20,899 nt of DNA from the IMG/VR virus record IMGVR_UViG_3300027736_000291, positions 1 to 20,899 of that record. One strand, written 5' to 3'. The notes below the pieces were generated by a model. That model had not been told where the DNA came from and searched no databases. It was given only the letters and a program-made list of their open reading frames with translations. Both the position numbers and the translations under genes were made by a program. Below, one piece after another: positions 1,783-20,899 of the stretch. Source of the DNA: a virus. Position 1 is the stretch's first letter; the number at the start of each line of letters is the position of its first letter.

Positions 1783-2613
1783 TTAAACGATAGTCCAGTA
1801 GCTGCCCGATGGGACAGTCACTGTGATGCCAGAATTAATAGAAACTGGCCCAGCCGACATAGCATTGTAGTTGGTCGTAAGCGTGTAATTGACGGTAACT
1901 GTCTGCTGGTTTTCGTAGAAAATGCGATCAGGAGATCCGCCGGTTGGATAAATTGATCCTGTGGGGCCAGTAGCGCCAGTCGGACCCGTTGGGCCTGCTG
2001 CCCCAGCAGTGCCTGCTGTTCCGGTTGGTCCAGTCGGCCCGGCAACCGTCGATGCTGCCCCCGTGGGACCGGTGGGACCGGTGGGGCCAGCAACGGTAGA
2101 AGCCGCTCCGGTGGGGCCAGTGGGGCCAGTGACGCCTTGAATGCCTTGCGGCCCAACATCGCCTTGCGGTCCAGTAGGGCCAAAACCCGTGGGGCCAGTG
2201 GCTCCCGTGGGGCCAATACTTCCGTTTGGGCCAGTTGCGCCCGCAGGCCCGGTAACACCCGTAGGGCCAGTCGGGCCATACGGGCCGGTGGGGCCGGGGG
2301 TTGTAGAAACGGCTCCAGTAGCACCTGTCGGGCCGGTGGGGCCAACAGCGCCAGTATTTCCAGTGGGGCCGGTTGGTCCTGCTCCGGTGGGGCCGGTATT
2401 GCCGGTGGCCCCGGTAGCGCCCGTGGGGCCGGTGGGGCCAGTAACACTAGGACCAGCGGGACCAGTAGGGCCAGTTGCAGCTAGATTGGCAATTGCCTGT
2501 GTTGTTGTGCGCTTTGATTCACCAGACTGGACAATCTCAATTTGTTCCGTGCCATTGAGAGCAATAGCCGCGCCAAGATTTGGGATCTGAACATTACTAG
2601 CGTAACGAGGCAT
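1783..2613 (-). CDS. Collagen-like tail fibre/appendage protein
   Basis: This 276-residue protein has three parts. Residues 1-47 are an ordinary globular or helical lead ([21 protein letters not shown], ending [12 protein letters not shown]) that probably attaches to the virion. Residues 48-220 are almost pure Gly-X-Y repeats dominated by GPT, with short breaks such as GAASTVA and [20 protein letters not shown] occurs twice in tandem. Residues 221-276 form a C-terminal cap ending [20 protein letters not shown], a pattern I recognise from many phage tail proteins. Collagen-like stretches in phage fibres form trimeric triple helices, and trimer registration is usually set by the flanking domains. 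The start overlaps the stop of the preceding gene (TGATG). The repetitive DNA makes length variation by slippage or recombination likely. Confidence 0.9.
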
Positions 2614-6192: not shown

Positions 6193-7104
6193 TTAGGTCG
6201 GGAACGAACCCCAGATGGCGCGCCAGTTGTAGTAAGCGAAGGAGTAACGCTCGTAGCCCTTAACAAGCAGATTGTCTGTGACAAAATCAACCTGCATATC
6301 GGATTCGAACTTCACTCGCTCCATGTACGACAGACCGTCGATGTTGGTCAGCAGGAACCAAGCGCGGGTTGAGGTCAAGAAGTCGTTGACCATGTACCCC
6401 TCGGGGAGACCGCCAGCCGTCATCATGATCGCGTTCACGTCGTTGTCCGCAGTGCCGGGGCGCAGTTCCGTCTTCGTCAGACGGATAGCAACCGGCTCAA
6501 GCTGCGGAGGCACAACAAGCTTGCGGCCACGGGCGAAGATCTTCAGACCAGCCTGGTCCTTGAACGCCGTCCTGATCCCAATCATGCCGTTCAGCAGGGT
6601 CGACTCATTCAGGTCAACGGGAGTTGCCGGAATGTTGGAAACCGTGCCGCCGTCGATAGGATGGTCAGAAGCGCAGAGCGCCTTGCCGTCGCCGCCGATG
6701 GACGCATTGTAGGTCGTCGCGGTGTTGAGGACGTTCGCGCCGTAGATTTCCTTGGTCTGATGGAAAGATTCAATCAGGCCGAGGTTCGAGGGCATGAACT
6801 GTGTCTTGTACAGGTTGTCATCAATCGCTTTGCGAGTGATGGCATAGCCGAGAGCGATCTCAGTATGCTCCTGATTGTAGACGTAGCGTTCGCCAGCGCC
6901 GTTATCAAAGGCAGTCTGACCGCCTTCGGTCTTGAGCTGAGCGAGACCCAAGAAACGCATTTCTGCGGTGCGCTCAAGCGCCATCTTGGAATCATGCTTC
7001 GTGAAGATCTTGTCGTACTGCGACGGGATCTGCTCGTACTTGCCTTCAACCCCACGGAGACCGGGGAGCAGAAGGTCTTTAATGGCAGAAAGATTAACAG
7101 CCAT
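6193..7104 (-). CDS. Major capsid protein (Mu gpT-like, HK97 fold)
   Basis: This 303-residue protein is the predicted shell subunit. Family signs include an N-terminal helical part (YEQIPSQYDKIFTKHDSKMALERTAEM, 23-49), GYAITRKAIDDNLY (86-99), the segment CASDHPIDGGTVSN (144-157), ARGRKLVVPPQLEPVA (191-206), NDVNAIMMTAGGLP, and a C-terminus with MERVKFESD and ERYSFAYYNWRAIWG. These match what I recall of Mu gpT-type capsid proteins found in many phages, which adopt the HK97 fold. No large cleaved N-terminal delta domain is obvious; the separate acidic coiled-coil gene upstream probably supplies the scaffold. A strong AAGGAG precedes the start. It is flanked by hairpins and a candidate promoter, consistent with high separate expression. 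Confidence 0.9.
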   Translation of the reverse strand: MAVNLSAIKDLLLPGLRGVEGKYEQIPSQYDKIFTKHDSKMALERTAEMRFLGLAQLKTEGGQTAFDNGAGERYVYNQEHTEIALGYAITRKAIDDNLYKTQFMPSNLGLIESFHQTKEIYGANVLNTATTYNASIGGDGKALCASDHPIDGGTVSNIPATPVDLNESTLLNGMIGIRTAFKDQAGLKIFARGRKLVVPPQLEPVAIRLTKTELRPGTADNDVNAIMMTAGGLPEGYMVNDFLTSTRAWFLLTNIDGLSYMERVKFESDMQVDFVTDNLLVKGYERYSFAYYNWRAIWGSFPT

Positions 7105-10390: not shown

Positions 10391-11574
10391 GGAGCCCCAC
10401 CAGCAGCAGGCATAGGCATGGGGATAGGCATCGGCATGGGCATCGGCGCACCACCGGGAGCGCCACCCGGAGGCGGAACAGCTACAGGCATCCCGCCCGG
10501 CATCCCATCCATGCCCGGAGGCTTGGTCGGCCCACCCATGGGGTTAGGCATCATGTCGCCCATTCCAGCAGGCTTGCCCGCGCCAATGATGATGTTGATC
10601 GCGGTCTTGCCCTTACCCTTGGTCTTGCCGCCATCCTTGCGAGCCGTGCGGCCACCGGGGACTACGCCGGGGATCTTGCCGGGATAGCCGGGGCCAGAGA
10701 AGACCTGACCGCCGGTAGCGCGCTTGGCGCGGCCACCCTTTTTCATCCCACCCATTGCATTTTGTTGATCAGCAAGACTGGCATCTCTTGCGCCCATATT
10801 TGCAGCAGACGCCTGAGCCGCAGCCCGATCAGCAGAACCCATACGACTTTGGCGGCTTCCGTCATCCATCCCCATAGCTTGACCACCAACATCTTTGCCG
10901 GTGCGGCCACCGCTCTTCTTCTCATCTTTGTCGTGGCTCATTTCGTCCGCAGCAATGCCAGCGCCAACGCCGCCAAGTAGGCCCGCAAGACCACCACCCA
11001 TTTTGCCGGTGCGGGCCTCAGACTTCACCATCTTCTTGATGAGCGCCTTGTCAGCAGCGATGTCCTCGTGGCCTTCAGTCTTGCCGCCCTTCTTCATGCC
11101 GGTAGCCTTAAGGGGAGAAAGAGAACCTTTTTTAAGGCCAACAAAGTTCATGGTAGCGCCGGGGACATCGCCGACAGCCTGTGCGCGCTGCATCATTTTA
11201 GCGGCACCAGCCATAGGTCCGCCAACCATCTTCTTGGCGCGGCCACCAGACTTCAAGCCACCAATGTGCTTGTAGCCTTCGCGCTCCTCGTTGGCTTCCT
11301 TCATGTTCTTGTTCACAAGGGAGTCAGCGGTGATGGGCTTATTGCCAGTGCGGACAGACTTGCCCATGTTGGCTACAGCCTTGCTGCCCTCAACCTTGCC
11401 ACCCGACTTATAAGCCCGGCGAGAAATAGGGCGCATGCCCGTCTTCACATCTGCCTTGAGCATTTCAGGGGGCGTAAAAGTAGACGAATCAACCCTTTCA
11501 AGCGGGCGATCTGCCGTAAGGCGCTGGGCCTTAGCTTTCATGGCCGCACGGGCCTGTTTTGCCATATCAGACAT
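10147..11574 (-). CDS. Low-complexity Lys/Gly/Met-rich protein with repeated [K/R]xGG motifs
   Basis: This 475-residue, very basic protein has no recognised domain. About ten short motifs of the form K-x-G-G-[K/R/Q] are scattered through it (KSGGK, KSGGR, KKGGK, KKGGR, ATGGQ, KDGGK, KVGGR), most followed by A, T or V. A Met-Pro-Gly-rich stretch lies at about 340-390, with MPMPMPIPMPMP. The last 80 residues are a duplicated 36-residue unit (RKSGGRATSYKDMTAGAGSG and RKVGGRTYSSYKDMDAGAGS, each continuing GRL.K.EIA). AGGAG precedes the ATG. It lies in the portal-to-scaffold interval, where internal core or ejection proteins often lie; the composition would suit an intrinsically disordered, DNA-binding virion protein. 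That role is inference. The motif is also found in three neighbouring proteins. Confidence 0.8.
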   Translation of the reverse strand: MSDMAKQARAAMKAKAQRLTADRPLERVDSSTFTPPEMLKADVKTGMRPISRRAYKSGGKVEGSKAVANMGKSVRTGNKPITADSLVNKNMKEANEEREGYKHIGGLKSGGRAKKMVGGPMAGAAKMMQRAQAVGDVPGATMNFVGLKKGSLSPLKATGMKKGGKTEGHEDIAADKALIKKMVKSEARTGKMGGGLAGLLGGVGAGIAADEMSHDKDEKKSGGRTGKDVGGQAMGMDDGSRQSRMGSADRAAAQASAANMGARDASLADQQNAMGGMKKGGRAKRATGGQVFSGPGYPGKIPGVVPGGRTARKDGGKTKGKGKTAINIIIGAGKPAGMGDMMPNPMGGPTKPPGMDGMPGGMPVAVPPPGGAPGGAPMPMPMPIPMPMPAAGGAPMPRKSGGRATSYKDMTAGAGSGEGRLQKTEIAESKRSARKVGGRTYSSYKDMDAGAGSGKGRLEKAEIASKTARIEPGNY

Positions 11575-12978: not shown

Positions 12979-14544
12979 TTAGCGAGAAGAGATCAGATGG
13001 TGAATGATCTCAAGAGCCTTGTGAACCGAGTCTGGTTTGCCAGCAGACCCGCCACGCTTCATGCCCTGCTCATTGAGCTTGGTCACATCAAAGTTGGGAT
13101 CATCCTTGTGGGTTCTGGCATACTGACGCTCTGCCCGCATCCATGCACCAGCGTCTCCGGGGTCAGCCTGCGACTGCTCAAAGAGCTGTTTTGTGGTAGC
13201 TGGCCTGTTTGTAAAGAGGTTTGACAGAAACCCTTCTTCAGGGCGGCGCGGTGATGCAGGGGCTGCTTCTCCAGTTGCTTGTGCCGCCGCCATGCGTTGC
13301 CTAGCTAATTGAACTGGGTTTTTGGGATAGGCTGAAAGCTCATCTACGCCTGGGGCATTGCTGCGATTGTAATTACGAACCGCACCAGCAGGATAAGCTG
13401 AAAGTTCGTCAACCCCAAGCGAATTGGTGCGATCCAAACTTCTGCGAACCGCACCAGAAGGATAAGCAGACAGCTCATCTACGCCCAACAAATTGCCTCG
13501 ATCCATATCCTTGGGTCCGGCTGCAGCAGTTGCAGAAGGGCCATTTATTGCAGGAGCAAGGGCAAAACCCGCAGCAGCAGGCACTCCAACATATGCAGTG
13601 CCCTGCGCAATGCGCTGGCCAGGCGTAAATGCTGTACGGCCCGGCCCGAACTGACCGTTTGGCATGATCTGCTGCAGTTGATACCCAGTTTCAGGGTTAA
13701 TGACTGGCCTAGGCCTTGTAAGATAATCTACCGGGCCAGGTATTTCGCTAACCCTTTGAGCAAGCGCCTCAAATGGGTCATGGATAGCACCCATAGCCGG
13801 TCTCATTTGGCCAGTTAACGGGTCTCTTACCGACTGGGGCATGCCAGTTTCTGGATTAACAAAGCGGCCCGGATTGCGGTTTTGCTGTATCGCCAGATCT
13901 ACTGGACTAATGGACCTAGCAGTCTCTACCGCCTCGGATGCAGCAGATGGCGCAGCAGGACGGGCGGCAACAGTTGGTGCCGGTGCCTGCGCTCCTCCTT
14001 CTCGCAACACCCTGAACACTTGCTCTCTGTCCGCAGAAGGCATTGCATTGATTGTCTCTTGCATGTCCCTAGGAAGATAAGAAAACTCTCTGGGGATGTT
14101 GGCAAGTTCAGACGCAGCAGCGGGTTTGGGGCGAGGCTTAAACATGGACGCACCTTTGGATGGAAGAGGGGTAAACATGCTTGCAATTTCAGCAGCGTGT
14201 TCGGGAGCTGGGCCAAGCGTTCTGCCAACAGGTTTGGTGAAATACTCGGTCACCCCCGCCAAGGGCGATATGGCGGATAAAGCAGACCCGCCAATAACCT
14301 GACCAGCCCCATAGAGGGGATTAGTTTTAAAGTTCTCATATCCGCGCTGGCTTATATCTCTACCAGCCCCGTAAGTTGCGGCGGTGCCCCCTGTAAAGTC
14401 AAACACCCTTGGAGAAAAATACTCTTTAGCTTTGCTGGCAACATCACCAAAAAACCCTCTAGGTTTTGACGCTGGAGTAGTTGCCGGAACAAGGATGGTG
14501 TTGCCATTGGCGTCAGTAGAAAGTTCATAGGAGGGAGAAGCCAT
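12979..14544 (-). CDS. 521-residue phage protein with GVDELSAYP repeats and KRGG C-terminal module
   Basis: This protein follows the portal gene with a one-base stop/start overlap (TAATG). Residues 28-110 contain a Gly/Ala-rich amphipathic part (FFGDVASKAKEYFSPRVFDF, LYGAGQVIGGSALSAISPLAG) that could contact membrane or pack in the capsid. The middle is Pro/Ala-rich with two NPETG words. Residues 354-407 hold three near-identical units around GVDELSAYP, spaced 23 and 22 residues. The C-terminus reads MKRGGSAGKPDSVHKALEII then HHLISSR. I do not recognise a named family. In phages of this layout, proteins between portal and scaffold are often ejected or internal-core proteins, which is my inference. 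The upstream stop and GGAGAACTG region supplies the ribosome site. Confidence 0.8.
   Translation of the reverse strand: MASPSYELSTDANGNTILVPATTPASKPRGFFGDVASKAKEYFSPRVFDFTGGTAATYGAGRDISQRGYENFKTNPLYGAGQVIGGSALSAISPLAGVTEYFTKPVGRTLGPAPEHAAEIASMFTPLPSKGASMFKPRPKPAAASELANIPREFSYLPRDMQETINAMPSADREQVFRVLREGGAQAPAPTVAARPAAPSAASEAVETARSISPVDLAIQQNRNPGRFVNPETGMPQSVRDPLTGQMRPAMGAIHDPFEALAQRVSEIPGPVDYLTRPRPVINPETGYQLQQIMPNGQFGPGRTAFTPGQRIAQGTAYVGVPAAAGFALAPAINGPSATAAAGPKDMDRGNLLGVDELSAYPSGAVRRSLDRTNSLGVDELSAYPAGAVRNYNRSNAPGVDELSAYPKNPVQLARQRMAAAQATGEAAPASPRRPEEGFLSNLFTNRPATTKQLFEQSQADPGDAGAWMRAERQYARTHKDDPNFDVTKLNEQGMKRGGSAGKPDSVHKALEIIHHLISSR
13324..13510 (-). repeat. Three tandem coding repeats with GVDELSAYP core
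   Basis: Three copies encode N-x-x-GVDELSAYP-x-x-[A/P]V. The cores lie at 13485-13459, 13416-13390 and 13350-13324, i.e. 69 and 66 bases apart. The nine-residue core is identical in all three while synonymous codons differ (for example GTAGATGAG versus GTTGACGAA), which points to selection on the peptide and not to recent duplication. Confidence 0.85.
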
Positions 14545-16868
14545 TACAGTTCTCCAGTCTGAGTGCCATCCAGAGTAGGCTCATTGCTCTCTAGACGCTG
14601 AAGCATTTGAGGATCCAAGAATTGCTGAGCATCAGCAAGCCCATCAGGGTTGCGCATGACTTCTTCAGCAAGTTTGATGGCGGCAAGGCGCTCGCGGCTT
14701 TCGCGGTCACGCTTACGGTTGATCGCATCCAGCATCGTGTCTTGGTTGCGCTGCTGGATCTCCATGCGCTGGGTATCCACTTGCGCCATCTTGGCGGGGT
14801 CACCCTGATCGCGCTGCATCTCCATTTGGAGCCGCATGTGATCAAGCTCCAGACGGGCTTGAGACTCTTGCGCACGGGTCTGGCTATCCAGCATGCGGGC
14901 GTCAGCGTTGCTCTTGTCGTTTTGGGCCTTGGCCATGGCCTGCATAAGCTCTGGCGGGGGCTTGCCCTGCGCAGACGCCGGAATCATGAACTGTTGCGGG
15001 TTGCTCCAACCAAGGGCTTGCAGCGCAGCCGTGTCCACTGCAATCGGGTCATAGAGAGCCGGGTTGGACGCCACCAACTGCTTTAATGCCAGCACTTTCA
15101 TAAGCCGCTGGGTTTGGCTTGAGGTATTGGGGTCCGCCTGCGGAACAAAATAGTAATTGTCCAACGCATCGATGAACGTCTTCTCGTCCCACGGATACGC
15201 AGTCTTGCGGCGCTTTTGCCAGAAGCTTTCTGGATGCTCCTTAAAGCACTCCACCAACATCTCAAACTCTTCGGACTGAGCCGAGTGCATCCTCTTATGG
15301 ACCGAATTTAAAACTTTCTGGGCCTGCTCAATCATGGCAAGCGTCGTGCCCACGGGCGCGTCTGGCTTGCCCTCGGTCACCATGACCTCAGACGTTCCGC
15401 CAACACGCATGCCGGTGTCAGACATCTGGGTGACAAGGTTCATGAGAGCGCCGGAGGGCTCCTTGTAAGGCAGAGGCATAATGGCTTGGTTGATGGGCAT
15501 GCCATTGGTCTTGACCAATGCACCCCCGCCAGGAGGAACACGGAATATGTTGGTGTTCTGCCTTGCCCCGGTGTCAGCCATGAGAAAACCGGGGAAATTG
15601 TTGTACATGCCAGCGTCTAACAGCTCCCGCCACGCCGCCGTGATAGCGTTTGTCGTGTTGCCGAGTATATGAAGTAGCCCAATATCATAAAAGCCCATGC
15701 CAGGAACAAAAGTGTATTTAACAAATCGGCGCTTAGCGACCGGAAGCTCCTGATCATCCTCTGCATAGTTGCGCACCACCGACAAAACTTGCTGTGACGA
15801 CAAATCGATAGTCACAATGTAGGGGATCTCAAGCCCAGACGGCTTGCCCTTGTGTTTATGCTCAAAACCGGGAATGTCCAGTTCGCAATAGACCTCATAG
15901 ATCTCGCGATCACGGTCATCCGGGTTCATGGAGCCGGTCGCAATGCCTTGCTGAGCGTTTTTCTCGCGCTGGACGCTGTCGAGATCCGGCTCTTTAGGCG
16001 TAGAAAGGTCAATATCGCGGTAAACACCGAGAATTTGCAACCTTTTGACCGTGCTGGGGCGCATATAGGACCGATGTGTAATGCGTTTTGCATTACGCAG
16101 GTCTGTCGCGGCGTTGTTGACGATCAAATCGTTTGCATCGACACTCTCGGAAACCGGGCGGTTGCGCAACGGGCAGAAATACACCTTCTTGAAGCTTGTG
16201 CCACCAAAGCCAAGCATAAGAAGCATGCGATCCGTGTCGGGATAGTACTCAGTAGCCGTTGCAGTCAGGTAATGATTGAGGTCATTCTCCAGCGCATTGG
16301 CTAACTGGTCGTTCTCAAGGGTTGCGTTGTTGTTATCATTGCGAATTTTGACTGGCCCATCGGTCGGGAGCAGCTCAGAACGCGCATTTGCTTGGAATCG
16401 CAGCACTGCTTCAAGCAGCAGCGGGTGTCGGACCTTACTCATGCCCTCCACCGGAGCGCCATCGGCGGTTCCCTGCAAGCCGGGGATCTCAATCTTGAGG
16501 CCGAGCAGCTTAATTCCTTGCGCCCGGTCCTCGATCCAGTCATTGCGGCTCTGGATGTCATCCCGAATGCCGCGCAAAAGCTCTTGTGCAATGTTGTTAA
16601 GGTTGCCTTCGGCGACATCATCGACCAGATTGCGATACCAATCGGTCTCGTCGCGCTCTTTGCGGTTGTCGTCAATGGGTTTCCCATCGAGGGAAATGGT
16701 TATTGAGCCGTCTGCATGCTCAATTTCAAGAATTGCGCCGCTTGAATCAGATTTAGGGGTGTCTTCGCCGTCCTCGATGATCTCAATAAGAGCGTCTTCC
16801 CCGCCAAGGGCCTCATCTTCAGGTGGTGCTTGCCTGATGTTGGGCATCAAACCGGGGGTCATCGGCAT
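14544..16868 (-). CDS. Portal protein (P22-type long portal)
   Basis: At 774 residues this has the length of P22-like portals. The N-terminus is acidic (PPEDEALGGEDALIEIIEDG). The core has recognisable portal blocks: DDVAEGNLNNIAQELLRGI, HPLLLEAVLRFQANARSELL, TDRMLLMLGFGGTSFKKVYFCP, RITHRSYMRPSTVKRLQ, GFYDIGLLHILGNTTNAITAAWRELLDAGMYNNFPGFL, and the clip/stem-like MSDTGMRVGGTSEVMVTEGKPDAPVGTTLAMIEQAQKVLNSVHKRMHSAQSEE. The C-terminal 150 residues form a long Gln/Arg-rich helix (LELDHMRLQMEMQRDQGDPA, INRKRDRESRERLAAIKLAEE), like the barrel helix of P22 gp1. It forms the dodecameric ring through which DNA is packaged and released. It follows the 70-residue gene by 5 bases; GAGG lies upstream of the ATG. 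Confidence 0.92.
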   Translation of the reverse strand: MPMTPGLMPNIRQAPPEDEALGGEDALIEIIEDGEDTPKSDSSGAILEIEHADGSITISLDGKPIDDNRKERDETDWYRNLVDDVAEGNLNNIAQELLRGIRDDIQSRNDWIEDRAQGIKLLGLKIEIPGLQGTADGAPVEGMSKVRHPLLLEAVLRFQANARSELLPTDGPVKIRNDNNNATLENDQLANALENDLNHYLTATATEYYPDTDRMLLMLGFGGTSFKKVYFCPLRNRPVSESVDANDLIVNNAATDLRNAKRITHRSYMRPSTVKRLQILGVYRDIDLSTPKEPDLDSVQREKNAQQGIATGSMNPDDRDREIYEVYCELDIPGFEHKHKGKPSGLEIPYIVTIDLSSQQVLSVVRNYAEDDQELPVAKRRFVKYTFVPGMGFYDIGLLHILGNTTNAITAAWRELLDAGMYNNFPGFLMADTGARQNTNIFRVPPGGGALVKTNGMPINQAIMPLPYKEPSGALMNLVTQMSDTGMRVGGTSEVMVTEGKPDAPVGTTLAMIEQAQKVLNSVHKRMHSAQSEEFEMLVECFKEHPESFWQKRRKTAYPWDEKTFIDALDNYYFVPQADPNTSSQTQRLMKVLALKQLVASNPALYDPIAVDTAALQALGWSNPQQFMIPASAQGKPPPELMQAMAKAQNDKSNADARMLDSQTRAQESQARLELDHMRLQMEMQRDQGDPAKMAQVDTQRMEIQQRNQDTMLDAINRKRDRESRERLAAIKLAEEVMRNPDGLADAQQFLDPQMLQRLESNEPTLDGTQTGEL

Positions 16869-17128: not shown

Positions 17129-18853
17129 TTAAACTGGATAGAGCGGGGTCCATTGATTATTGCCCTTAAAGGCCAAGCTATCCTCAAGTTCCGCCTTAAA
17201 CTCATCGCCGCGCATAATGGCCCCGGTCTCGCGCAGATGTCTCATGGCCATGCTTACGGTATCGACCAAGTCGTCATGCTTGCCTTTGGGAAACTGCCCG
17301 ACTTGGGTAATGACCATCTCGGCCCATTGCCTGGCGGGGGCAAAGACCAAACCTTCAGCGAACAAATGCTGAACTGAGTACAGCCGCGCCAGCTTATCTT
17401 GGGACTTGGGGTCGAACATGTGGACGCCAAACTTCTCAAACCCGTACATCCGGCGGATTTCTTGGGCGACCGAATGCCCGGCGGCTTTGTTCTCAATGAG
17501 GAGCGTGTCCACCTTGAGCCTGCGGCATGTGTCGGAGACCTTCAAAACCAGATCGTGCAACTCATACCGGCCTTGCCAAGCATGCATGAGCATAACCCTT
17601 GGCGCGGTTTCCGTGTACTGGCGCTCATATGCCATCCGTTCGCCGTGGCGATTACCGGCGTGGCTGGGAGACTGAACAGAAACTCCACTGGTAAACACGC
17701 CCCACACTGTCATGGCGGATGGGTCGTTCTCGGTCTTGGTCGTATATGCCGTGTCTAGCGTGGCGATGATCAGGTCCATGGCGGGGAAGTGCGGGGAATC
17801 CCAAGGTTGCCACCACTCACGCTTGATGATGCCGCCGCCTTTGGGCTCCGGGCGCTGCTGGAGCTGACCGGCTGCTGACCATGGGCCAAGCTGCTTTTCG
17901 AGGATTGTCACTTCGGTTTCGCCAAACCGTTCTGGCCAGAGCAGTTCACCTTCGCGGGTTTCTTCAAGCTCTATCTGGGCCTCAATGTTAATAGCAATTC
18001 GATTGCCGTCATCATCTATTTCAACAAGGGGCTCGCCTTCGTCGTCACAGCCACGGGGGTCATTCCAACCAATAGAGGTGACGGAGTGCCGCTGCCACTC
18101 GTAGCGCATGGGCAGACAGAGATGGGTCCACTCACCCTCATCCTTGGACATGATGTGGCCGGTTAGGTCTTCTTCTGACAACCTCTGCTGGATAACCACG
18201 AATGCGCCGGTTTTGGGGTCATTGAGGCGGGTTGAAAGCGCACCGTCCCACCATTCGATGGTCGATGCAATGGTAGCTTCGGAGAAAGCTTCTTGCGCTG
18301 CATTGGGGTCATCAACAACAATAATAGAGCCGCCCTCACCAGTAAGCGCGGAGCCCACCGATGTGGATAGGCGCGAACCATTCTTGTCATTGTCAAAGCG
18401 CCCTTTGGTGTTTTGGTCTGAGGTAAGCTTAAACCTGTCGCCCCAGAGGCTGCGGTACCATGGGCTTTCGATAAGGCGGCGGCATTTAACGCTATCGCGC
18501 AGGGACAATTGCTGAGCATATGATGCATGGAGGAATTGTACGCCCGCGCCAGAGGTTGGACTGGTGTGGGATTGCGCCCATGTCCAAGCCGGGAACGCGC
18601 ACGAGGTAACGGATGATTTGCCCATGCGGGGCGGAATGTTGATGATAAGGCGGCGAATTTCTCCATCGACTACAGCTTGCAAATGCTCTGCTATGGCTTC
18701 AATGGGCCAGCCCTCGGTGAAGGGGGATGCGTCGATATATTTCCATGAGTTCTTTAGGAATGTGTAAAGGCTTTCTTCACAATCTACGCGATCCAGCTCT
18801 GCAAGCTGACGCTCAATGTCGATCTGCTGGCCGTCGAGGGTAAGTGTGGTCAT
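17129..18853 (-). CDS. terL: Terminase large subunit
   Basis: This 574-residue DNA-packaging motor has both expected domains. ATPase: Walker A IPPRMGKS (73-80), Walker B IIVVDDP (177-183) followed by the coupling-type segment FVVIQQRLSEEDLTG (218-232), and QLQQRP near 331. Nuclease: three acidic positions of an RNase H-like site, D367 in ATLDTAY, E454 in LLIENKAAG, and D527/D528 in KHDDLVDTVSMAM. It cuts concatemers and drives DNA into the prohead through the portal, whose gene follows. The start overlaps the stop of the 53-residue gene (ATGA). No small terminase is recognisable in the window; it may lie elsewhere or be diverged. Confidence 0.95.
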   Translation of the reverse strand: MTTLTLDGQQIDIERQLAELDRVDCEESLYTFLKNSWKYIDASPFTEGWPIEAIAEHLQAVVDGEIRRLIINIPPRMGKSSVTSCAFPAWTWAQSHTSPTSGAGVQFLHASYAQQLSLRDSVKCRRLIESPWYRSLWGDRFKLTSDQNTKGRFDNDKNGSRLSTSVGSALTGEGGSIIVVDDPNAAQEAFSEATIASTIEWWDGALSTRLNDPKTGAFVVIQQRLSEEDLTGHIMSKDEGEWTHLCLPMRYEWQRHSVTSIGWNDPRGCDDEGEPLVEIDDDGNRIAINIEAQIELEETREGELLWPERFGETEVTILEKQLGPWSAAGQLQQRPEPKGGGIIKREWWQPWDSPHFPAMDLIIATLDTAYTTKTENDPSAMTVWGVFTSGVSVQSPSHAGNRHGERMAYERQYTETAPRVMLMHAWQGRYELHDLVLKVSDTCRRLKVDTLLIENKAAGHSVAQEIRRMYGFEKFGVHMFDPKSQDKLARLYSVQHLFAEGLVFAPARQWAEMVITQVGQFPKGKHDDLVDTVSMAMRHLRETGAIMRGDEFKAELEDSLAFKGNNQWTPLYPV

Positions 18854-19109: not shown

Positions 19110-19358
19110 ATGTTTACCATCAAGCACATCGACAAGCACAACACGGAACACCTTATTGAGGCTGAAAGCGTTTGGTACCGAGACAACACAGAAGAGGTCG
19201 TTGATACGGACAAGCCAATGATATGGGAACTTTCCTATACCACTGGGCCGCTGGTTCATGGCGGTCGGCTTACGCGAACCATTGATTTTGGCCTAGTTTA
19301 CGTAATGAACAGTAATGGGAAAACGGTAGCCAACTATGACCTTGGCGACCCAGAATAG
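19110..19358 (+). CDS. Hypothetical protein, 82 aa
   Basis: The ATG at 19110 has AGGAG eight bases upstream. The protein starts MFTIKHIDKHNTEHLIEAES and ends NGKTVANYDLGDPE; the alternation of hydrophobic and polar residues suggests a small beta-rich fold. There is no signal peptide, membrane segment or catalytic motif that I can name. It is the first plus-strand gene and lies between the divergent promoter region and the first parS-like palindrome. Role unknown. Confidence 0.75.
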   Translation: MFTIKHIDKHNTEHLIEAESVWYRDNTEEVVDTDKPMIWELSYTTGPLVHGGRLTRTIDFGLVYVMNSNGKTVANYDLGDPE

Positions 19359-19441: not shown

Positions 19442-19457
19442 TGTTTCACGTGAAACA
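19442..19457. promoter_or_regulatory. parS: parS-like palindrome, copy 1
   Basis: TGTTTCACGTGAAACA is a perfect 16-bp palindrome and identical to the chromosomal parS consensus bound by ParB/Spo0J. It lies 15 bases before the ATG of the Tat-signal gene, in its untranslated leader. With the preceding A it also makes a six-codon frame MFHVKH followed by TGA (19441-19461). Confidence 0.85.
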
Positions 19458-19471
19458 CTGAGGACAGTGCA

Positions 19472-20200
19472 ATGATTGCATCGCGGCGTAGGTTCTTGGC
19501 CGGAATTGGAAGCATATTGGCCGCGCCAGCAATTGTGCGGGCAGACAGCCTGATGAAGCTTCACCATATTCCAGAGCGTTGGGCTACCGTTTGGGGCGTT
19601 GGCTGGGACTTTGAGGTTGTTGAGGTTCCGTTATGGGAGCCTATGTCGGTTGCTCAGTTTGGCGGGGCTGAGTGCATAGGTGGTCATATTGAAAAGTTTC
19701 GCGAAGTTACGGATTGGGTTTACACAAAACCTATGCCTGTGCCGTTTCTTACTCCCACTCAAATGCCGGACGGGCTAATACCCGCAAATCCTATGGACAG
19801 GTTTGCTGCAATGCAACGCGGTGAGTGGAAGATGGTGCCCGTACCGTCGTTAGAACATCCACATGCCGTTAGGTACGAGCCAGTGACCGTGTTTGATGAC
19901 GCCAAAGAGATGGATGGCAAACACCCCTACATTCGCAAGCTCGACCTAAAAAAACATTGTGGGGACCGTCATGCGGAGCACTTGGTTGAATTGGCAGAAG
20001 TTAACAAGACCCGCAATGATGATTGGGAAATTGAAGGCAAAGACCAGCACAGGGTTGATGTTGCCCATATGTATGAATTGTCTACCGGTAACAGCGACAA
20101 GTGGGATTACGACCGCTGGGAAGCTTTTAGGAACGCAAACCAACCTACTGGTCCGTTGCCAACAGTAAAGTTTAAGGTAGCTGTTAAATCTATTGTTTGA
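19472..20200 (+). CDS. Hypothetical protein with twin-arginine (Tat) signal peptide
   Basis: This 242-residue protein starts MIASRRRFLAGIGSILAAPA and continues IVRADS. The twin-arginine motif S-R-R-R-F-L (4-9), a moderately hydrophobic stretch (10-22) and an A-x-A-like end (VRA, near 25) match a Tat signal, which sends folded proteins across the inner membrane. The mature part has many Trp, Pro and His (VWGVGWDFEVVEVPLWEPMS, EGKDQHRVDVAHMYELSTGN) and no family I recognise. Upstream GAGGA serves as ribosome site. It is the second plus-strand gene and is flanked on both sides by parS-like palindromes. Short proteins with Tat-like starts ending PAIVRA occur, to my memory, in phage genomes and remain uncharacterised. 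Export to the periplasm is inferred from the signal only. Confidence 0.8.
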   Translation: MIASRRRFLAGIGSILAAPAIVRADSLMKLHHIPERWATVWGVGWDFEVVEVPLWEPMSVAQFGGAECIGGHIEKFREVTDWVYTKPMPVPFLTPTQMPDGLIPANPMDRFAAMQRGEWKMVPVPSLEHPHAVRYEPVTVFDDAKEMDGKHPYIRKLDLKKHCGDRHAEHLVELAEVNKTRNDDWEIEGKDQHRVDVAHMYELSTGNSDKWDYDRWEAFRNANQPTGPLPTVKFKVAVKSIV

Positions 20201-20216
20201 TGTTTCACGTGAAACA
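20201..20216. promoter_or_regulatory. parS: parS-like palindrome, copy 2
   Basis: An exact TGTTTCACGTGAAACA starts on the base after the stop codon of the Tat-signal gene. It opens the 700-bp non-coding region. Confidence 0.85.
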
Positions 20217-20241
20217 CTGCATTTGACTTCCAGAGCCCGCG

Positions 20242-20350
20242 CCAGTGAGGTATACTGGTTTTGCTGGAGAGCGCTTGGCAGCTCCCTCTTTGGCACGGGG
20301 GGCGCTTTTGAACACGGCGTCCCCCACCATAGTTAGCCAGACGCCTAACT
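20242..20350 (+). other. Run of hairpins between parS copies 2 and 3
   Basis: Three inverted repeats follow one another: CCAGT/ACTGG (20242-20246, 20254-20258) overlapping a TATACT; GGGGGGCGC/GCGTCCCCC (20297-20305, 20317-20325; one G-U pair if RNA); and AGTTAG/CTAACT (20331-20336, 20345-20350). TTGACT lies at 20223-20228 but 22 bases from TATACT, too far for a standard promoter. No T-run follows, so it is not a terminator. It may be a small structured RNA or cruciform-forming DNA. Confidence 0.35.
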
Positions 20351-20385
20351 AGGCCTAACACCTGGCGCGGACAGCCAAGACCACG

Positions 20386-20401
20386 TGTTTCACGTGAAAC
20401 A
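20386..20401. promoter_or_regulatory. parS: parS-like palindrome, copy 3
   Basis: An exact TGTTTCACGTGAAACA lies 185 bp after copy 2. It is preceded by CCACG, giving an overlapping CACGTG word just beside the central one. Confidence 0.85.
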
Positions 20402-20459
20402 TTCCAAGTATGTCAAATCTCTTATACCCCGCTAACCTCCATATAGGCCCCTACAGAAG

Positions 20460-20567
20460 GGTACCTATGACCGGGGGTACCGGGGGGGGTATGCCTATGG
20501 CCTATGCTGGGGTAGCGCGCCATGCCGCACTGTATAGAGAGCGGGTACCTACAGGGCGGGGGGGGGG
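20460..20567. repeat. G-runs and repeated GGTACCTA / CCTATG words
   Basis: GGTACC palindromes occur at 20460, 20476 and 20544 (a fourth at 20640); three of these four extend to GGTACCTA (20460, 20544, 20640). CCTATG occurs three times. The plus strand has runs of five (20473-20477), eight (20482-20489) and ten G (20558-20567), compatible with a G-quadruplex. This lies between parS copies 3 and 4. Confidence 0.5.
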
Positions 20568-20570
20568 TAG

Positions 20571-20586
20571 TGTTTCACGTGAAACA
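20571..20586. promoter_or_regulatory. parS: parS-like palindrome, copy 4
   Basis: An exact TGTTTCACGTGAAACA lies 185 bp after copy 3, directly following a ten-G run and TAG. Confidence 0.85.
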
Positions 20587-20773: not shown

Positions 20774-20840
20774 TTAGTTTAGTTTAGTTTAGTTTAGTTA
20801 TGTTGCGTGGTTTAGTTTAGTTATGTTTAGTTTAGTTTAG
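20774..20840. repeat. TTTAG pentamer array
   Basis: TTAG is followed by four TTTAG, one TTATG, the spacer TTGCGTGG, two TTTAG, one TTATG and three TTTAG. Two inverted CTAAA words lie upstream at 20710-20720. Because the period (5) is coprime with 3, TAG falls in all three plus frames and TAA in all three minus frames, so the array cannot be coding. Two units make 10 bp, close to one helical turn, so alternate units face the same side of the DNA as iterons would. Confidence 0.85.
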
Positions 20841-20899
20841 TCATCCCTCTATTAGTTTGGAGTCGCGTACTTGTGTGAGCATTGCGCGCAAGGCCGAAC

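Follow-up and report, generated by a model that had tools for sequence, protein, structure and literature searches.

The ParB-parS system is a near-universal chromosome segregation mark of bacteria. Why, then, does a tailed phage carry four exact copies of the chromosomal parS site, and which protein would read them? We addressed these questions in a 20.9 kb virus record, analyzed over its whole length and hereafter called the window, and in its relatives.

RESULTS

Four exact parS sites lie between the terminase genes

The 16-bp palindrome TGTTTCACGTGAAACA occurs exactly at positions 19442–19457, 20201–20216, 20386–20401, and 20571–20586 (site-to-site spacing of 759, 185, and 185 bp) and nowhere else in the window; allowing up to 3 mismatches revealed no further site of this kind, and the reversed (not complemented) pattern gave 0 matches. 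The original prediction that the window holds four such 16-mers and no others was thus borne out, as was its claim that they are not random, since shuffled sequences gave an expectation of 0.00 exact sites, or 0.04 with 3 mismatches. Control palindromes also spoke against a chance origin, which we rejected: in IMG/VR, TGTTTCACGTGAAACA was present in at least 120 stretches, with 17 multi-site stretches among the matches listed; the control palindrome with a CAGCTG core was found in 33 contigs, never with two sites per locus, and the reversed palindrome in 1 contig. The CACGTG core of TGTTTCACGTGAAACA, unlike the CCCGGG core of Noc sites, marks it by sequence as a chromosomal-type parS (the site of ParB/Spo0J), in agreement with the identification made at the outset, and the same 16-mer was present in 42 of 58 sampled alphaproteobacterial genomes (mostly 1–3 exact sites, often two copies ~2 kb apart; reversed control, 0). 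Since the four copies in the window have only a core of 16–19 bp in common and their flanks are unrelated, we rejected duplication of a longer repeat as their source.

The window is a tailed-phage contig with its structural module on the minus strand, including genes for a glycosyltransferase (667–1758), the major capsid protein (6193–7104), and the portal (14544–16868); a collagen-like protein with G-P-T repeats is also encoded in this region (1783–2613, minus strand). One border of the parS-bearing interval is terL, the gene for the large terminase subunit (17129–18853, minus strand; PHROG 38, E = 3.2e-85). The other is the C-terminus of terS (20841–20897, minus strand), cut by the contig end to 18 codons and a stop, which matches the TerS of a relative, L181, at 94% over 18 aa; the L181 protein in turn matches PHROG 1482, terminase small subunit (E = 1.3e-18). 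These 18 residues and stop at the right end place all four parS sites within the terS-terL interval. A misassembly, a host chromosome segment, or a prophage boundary at this end, any of which had been named as fatal to the prediction, was rejected because the end encodes a phage terS.

Within the interval, site 1 is 14 bp upstream of the start codon (ATG), and site 2 abuts the stop codon, of a 242-aa open reading frame (19472–20200, plus strand, from the ORF listing) that begins with MIASRRRFLAGIGS, a twin-arginine-like signal; sites 3 and 4 follow, each 185 bp past the one before. This ORF had no PHROG or NCBIfam match, and several relatives have shorter, homologous-looking ORFs at its place (RRFI/RRFVL start, 'YATVWGVGWD'). 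Between terL and site 1 is an 82-aa ORF (19110–19358, plus strand) that is kept in several relatives, with an N-terminus, MFTIKHID, similar in L181, L129, and L142. A TTAGT tandem repeat (20774–20841, plus strand) adjoins the terS end and is present in the closest relatives only. A search of Rfam returned no known RNA match, a scan for terminators and promoters gave signals no higher than in shuffles, and GC skew displayed no consistent switch at the parS sites; a skew-based origin reading was rejected.

Many relatives carry parS upstream of terL

The original prediction had suggested looking for the same 16-mer at the same place in related phages. Relatives were fetched from IMG/VR by TerL alone, regardless of parS, and near-identical contigs were kept in the counts. 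Exact parS was present in 38 of the 78 rows obtained (1–5 sites per row, 101 in total), and all 101 sites were upstream of terL, no more than 5 kb from it, with none downstream; distances ranged from 68 bp to 4.7 kb. Of the 77 sites in contigs with a locatable TerS, near-identical contigs included, 76 fell between TerS and TerL, even when this interval spanned 4–5 kb. The sites were therefore where they had been looked for, and their absence from close relatives, which had been named as a refutation, was not observed; the original prediction overlooked that the sites keep to the terminase genes. Quantification of 16-mers in 56 dereplicated upstream regions revealed that parS was the commonest (85 copies in 32 regions), and that the next palindrome occurred in 3 regions.

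The spacing and flanks of the sites turn over among relatives and the exact sites stay. When homologous flanks less than 80% identical were compared, parS was intact at 16/16 positions in 48 of 54 comparisons vs. ~2–12% of flanking 16-column windows, with seeds inside parS masked, an arrangement in which extension through parS may still favor it. Of the 39 rows forming one clade of the TerL tree, 35 had parS, and 3 of the other 4 were contigs too short to judge; distant TerL clades were mostly without the site. It was also missing from MW202675 and from G006, a complete-looking relative (57.6 kb, 127-bp end overlap), indicating that the trait can be lost and is not essential to the group. The nucleotides bordering the palindrome also follow a rule: a purine at −1 and a pyrimidine at +1 were present in 146 of 156 phage half-sites vs. 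43 of 64 in sampled alphaproteobacterial chromosomes. The A at −1 of phage sites is not a feature of betaproteobacterial chromosomal sites and is partly shared by alphaproteobacterial ones.

A second phage family and other phages with parS

Among 120 IMG/VR loci listed for the 16-mer alone were 29 further loci with a distant TerL, in which 15 of 32 sites lay no more than 300 bp upstream of that gene. We used one such TerL as query (457 aa; 64% identical to that of Pelagibacter phage HTVC027P and about 28% to the window's TerL). Of the 80 loci fetched with it, 60 had a single exact site, always upstream of terL and in 51 cases within 300 bp; eight sites were close to −1057, a position that in L441 immediately precedes a terS-like ORF. 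After dereplication the site was present in 35 of 55 upstream regions, a proportion that similarity to the query favors, since the query contig itself bears parS; the position is still strikingly fixed. The isolated phages HTVC023P and HTVC027P had no parS near terL. In one locus (L100, at about 270–350), a TGTTCCACGTGGAACA palindrome, which we take to be a Pseudomonas-type parS, stands beside TGTTTCACGTGAAACA upstream of terL.

In a collection of phage genomes, a tandem-site query matched 213 records vs. 0 for the reversed palindrome. Exact sites without a ParB_N domain were found in Ruegeria phage DSS3P8 (3), Butyrivibrio virus Bo-Finn (3), Gordonia phage PatrickStar (2), and Lactobacillus phage Bacchae (2), and at very high density in two inovirus-like genomes of ~6 kb, L287 (PQ006135.1) and L288 (PQ006097.1), with six each. 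That the pattern extends to phi29 and to other families of phages had also escaped the original prediction. Under the names of Listeria phages LM 4-11-1 and LM 4-14-1, the collection has numerous short 'phage' records that lack annotation and contain parS; they are possibly host chromosome contigs, and the Listeria count is not trustworthy.

Partition genes, integrase, and likely host

The window is a part of its genome, and relatives reach about 57–61 kb, so that ParA and ParB genes outside the window, as the original prediction allowed, could be sought in the longer contigs (including ones of 61.1, 59.7, 57.6, and 57.5 kb). ParB_N (PF02195) was found in 0 of 24 window-family contigs of up to 61.1 kb and 0 of 12 second-family contigs, and the ParA-type domain AAA_31 (PF13614) in 0 of 24 window-family contigs; control genomes were positive for both. 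The early region of one relative, G007, encodes an HTH_36 initiator, DEAD helicase, Toprim primase, ERF, YqaJ, RusA, and a Cro/YdaS-like regulator, and the 32 ORFs of its non-structural region gave no ParB-like or partition Pfam match among the 25 of 31 families listed. Neither the ParB nor the ParA of a self-contained ParABS system was thus found in the relatives; the genome of the window phage itself is incomplete. Integrase PF00589, which covers one recombinase family, was likewise found in 0 of 24 window-family and 0 of 12 second-family contigs (controls positive), and ordinary maintenance as an integrated prophage is therefore unlikely.

GcrA homologs (PF07750, E about 1e-18) are encoded by G007 and by G019, the window's closest longer relative, and tblastn detected GcrA in 7 of 7 window-family contigs with long coverage of the early region. 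The homologs in window-family phages include L205: 11756–12463 and L212: 15342–15875, both minus strand. According to PMC9437464, conservation of GcrA is broad among Alphaproteobacteria, and phiCbK-like phages encode it as well. Since relatives encode this protein, the host of the window family is likely an alphaproteobacterium. Among genomes of the family to which the metagenome-assembled genome (MAG) holding L224 belongs, 30 of 41 carried the exact 16-mer (reversed control, 0). A GcrA homolog is also present in a window-family relative without parS. We also tried to assign the host through a prophage search of 84,980 genomes, and rejected this route: the closest TerL matches came from MAG contigs assigned to various phyla (beta, Paceibacterota, and Methylococcales), whose binning we judged unreliable. 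GcrA is the better host evidence.

DISCUSSION

The phage sites are most likely, judging from their sequence and setting, a borrowed host centromere: the phage would supply DNA sites only, and the host's chromosomal ParB (Spo0J) would be the reader. We are confident that host ParB would bind them, given the exact recurrence of the sites among relatives, the failure to find a ParB or ParA gene in longer relatives, and the identity of the motif with the chromosomal site of likely alphaproteobacterial hosts. Upon infection, ParB-CTP clamps would load at the terS-terL array and slide over neighboring phage DNA, and the origin-handling machinery (ParA and SMC and, in alphaproteobacteria, also MipZ/PopZ-type partners) would handle phage DNA as if it were an origin region. 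An unintegrated phage genome could in this manner be held, positioned, and passed to daughter cells when lysis is delayed, which we see as the likeliest benefit. Taken as a whole, the explanation that the four sites are working parS read in trans by host ParB, with the phage genome positioned or partitioned as a result, is probably correct; the benefit itself is its least certain part, and we propose positioning or partition only tentatively. Recruitment of host ParB, the core of the original prediction, is accordingly the reading best supported by these results; the prophage segregation offered there as one use is unlikely, as no integrase was found.

Some observations count against the borrowed-centromere explanation. 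G006 and MW202675 have no site, and HTVC023P and HTVC027P have none near terL; the preference for purine at −1 and pyrimidine at +1 is stronger in phage sites than in alphaproteobacterial chromosomes; and a partition role needs no fixed position at the terminase genes. The fixed position favors a local or locus-linked role, and the variable number and spacing of sites argue against a precise promoter or packaging element. Host ParB clamps between terS and terL may thus silence, insulate, or time the late and packaging genes, or label DNA close to where packaging begins. This is possible but rather unlikely: it suits the confinement of sites to the TerS-TerL interval in the window family, their position immediately ahead of terL or a terS-like ORF in the second family, whose TerL is so distant, and the reported repression of promoters near parS by ParB in Pseudomonas aeruginosa (PMC5521831), but distances ranging from 68 bp to 4.7 kb and numbers from one to five are loose for such an element, the sites of Bacchae, DSS3P8, PatrickStar, and the inovirus-like genomes lie in regions without a known terminase link, and the terS-terL interval may merely be free intergenic space. 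Many replicated phage genomes, with 1–5 parS each, may alternatively draw ParB and, in alphaproteobacteria, ParB-MipZ off the chromosome and stall host segregation and division during infection. We regard this too as doubtful, though worth keeping in mind. A replicating phage with up to 5 sites would outnumber the 1–3 exact sites of most alphaproteobacterial genomes, and the presence of GcrA, a host cell-cycle regulator, in relatives makes interference with the host cell cycle plausible; a decoy, however, could sit at any genomic position, which fits poorly with sites kept beside the terminase genes, and second-family loci mostly have a single one. Partition, sequestration, and local action all share the ParB step and may co-exist. 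More speculative still, chromosomal-type parS beside terminase genes could be an old and widespread phage device, with host ParB clamps at the packaging locus contributing to genome entry, to packaging choice, or to the timing of late genes, and coupling the handling of phage DNA to the segregation machinery of the host.

Readings without host ParB fare worse. The palindromes could be operators of a phage-encoded regulator, their identity to parS being coincidental, and relatives do encode HTH proteins (P22_Cro/YdaS-like); we consider this very improbable, given the identity to the universal 16-bp parS across unrelated phage groups (Gordonia, Lactobacillus, Ruegeria, Bacillus, and inovirus-like) and the reversed-palindrome control, with 0 matches in phages and a single contig in IMG/VR. 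That the sites are the phage's own centromeres, served by its own ParAB, gains some room from the length of the window, 20.9 kb against about 57–61 kb in relatives, but across both families 36 longer contigs gave no ParB_N and 24 gave no AAA_31, and G007 gave no ParB-like match among the families listed, which renders it highly improbable. Joining of host chromosome to a phage contig, which the chromosomal origin of the motif might have suggested, is refuted for practical purposes by the phage TerS at the contig end and by the same arrangement in dozens of independent contigs.

Phage use of host ParB and parS is already known from phi29; what appears to be new here is the terminase-linked parS arrays in two further phage families in which no own ParB was found. 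Our literature search, which covered little subscription literature and so is weak evidence of absence, did not turn up any description of phages like these with arrays of chromosomal-type parS. If host ParB does read these sites, phages of several lineages, apparently non-integrating, would exploit the host centromere routinely, beyond the special case of sporulating Bacillus. Cultured phages bearing parS, such as Ruegeria phage DSS3P8 and Lactobacillus phage Bacchae, make a direct test possible. In addition, parS-based origin calling in metagenomes can match phages.

Comparison with known systems

The genome of phi29 (L492) contains four TGTTTCACGTGGAACA sites, at 10445, 15903, 17243, and 18760, each one mismatch from TGTTTCACGTGAAACA; the related phage B103 has two sites, one of them exact and the other a variant. 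The phi29 variant presumably fits the B. subtilis parS consensus. Like phi29, the window family has host-type parS on phage DNA without a ParB of its own, and no integrase (PF00589) was found in it. In phi29, however, the sites are scattered and three of the four are inside annotated genes, the one at 17243 being directly 3′ of the packaging ATPase gene, whereas the window family has 1–5 exact sites confined to the terS-terL interval. The host of phi29 sporulates, and that of the window family is likely alphaproteobacterial; Alphaproteobacteria form no endospores. To our knowledge, no Spo0A-like lytic switch has been described for window-family phages. Entrapment of the phi29 genome in spores uses host Spo0J, according to PMC9437464, which cites Meijer et al. 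(2005).

Clustered centromere sites on extrachromosomal DNA are also a feature of phage and plasmid partition systems such as P1-type and mycobacteriophage parABS (cf. PMC7157519), but those systems encode their own ParA and ParB, and none was found in the window family. SGI1, as described in PMC10954446, resembles the window family in being a mobile element that uses a partition system encoded by another, the parABS of its IncC helper plasmid; in contrast, that system is a plasmid's and not the host chromosome's, and SGI1 is an integrative mobilizable element and no phage. Alphaproteobacterial phages with CtrA sites and GcrA genes (PMC9437464) are similarly wired into the host cell cycle, with the difference that they co-opt a transcription factor, whereas phages of the window family would co-opt a chromosome segregation mark.
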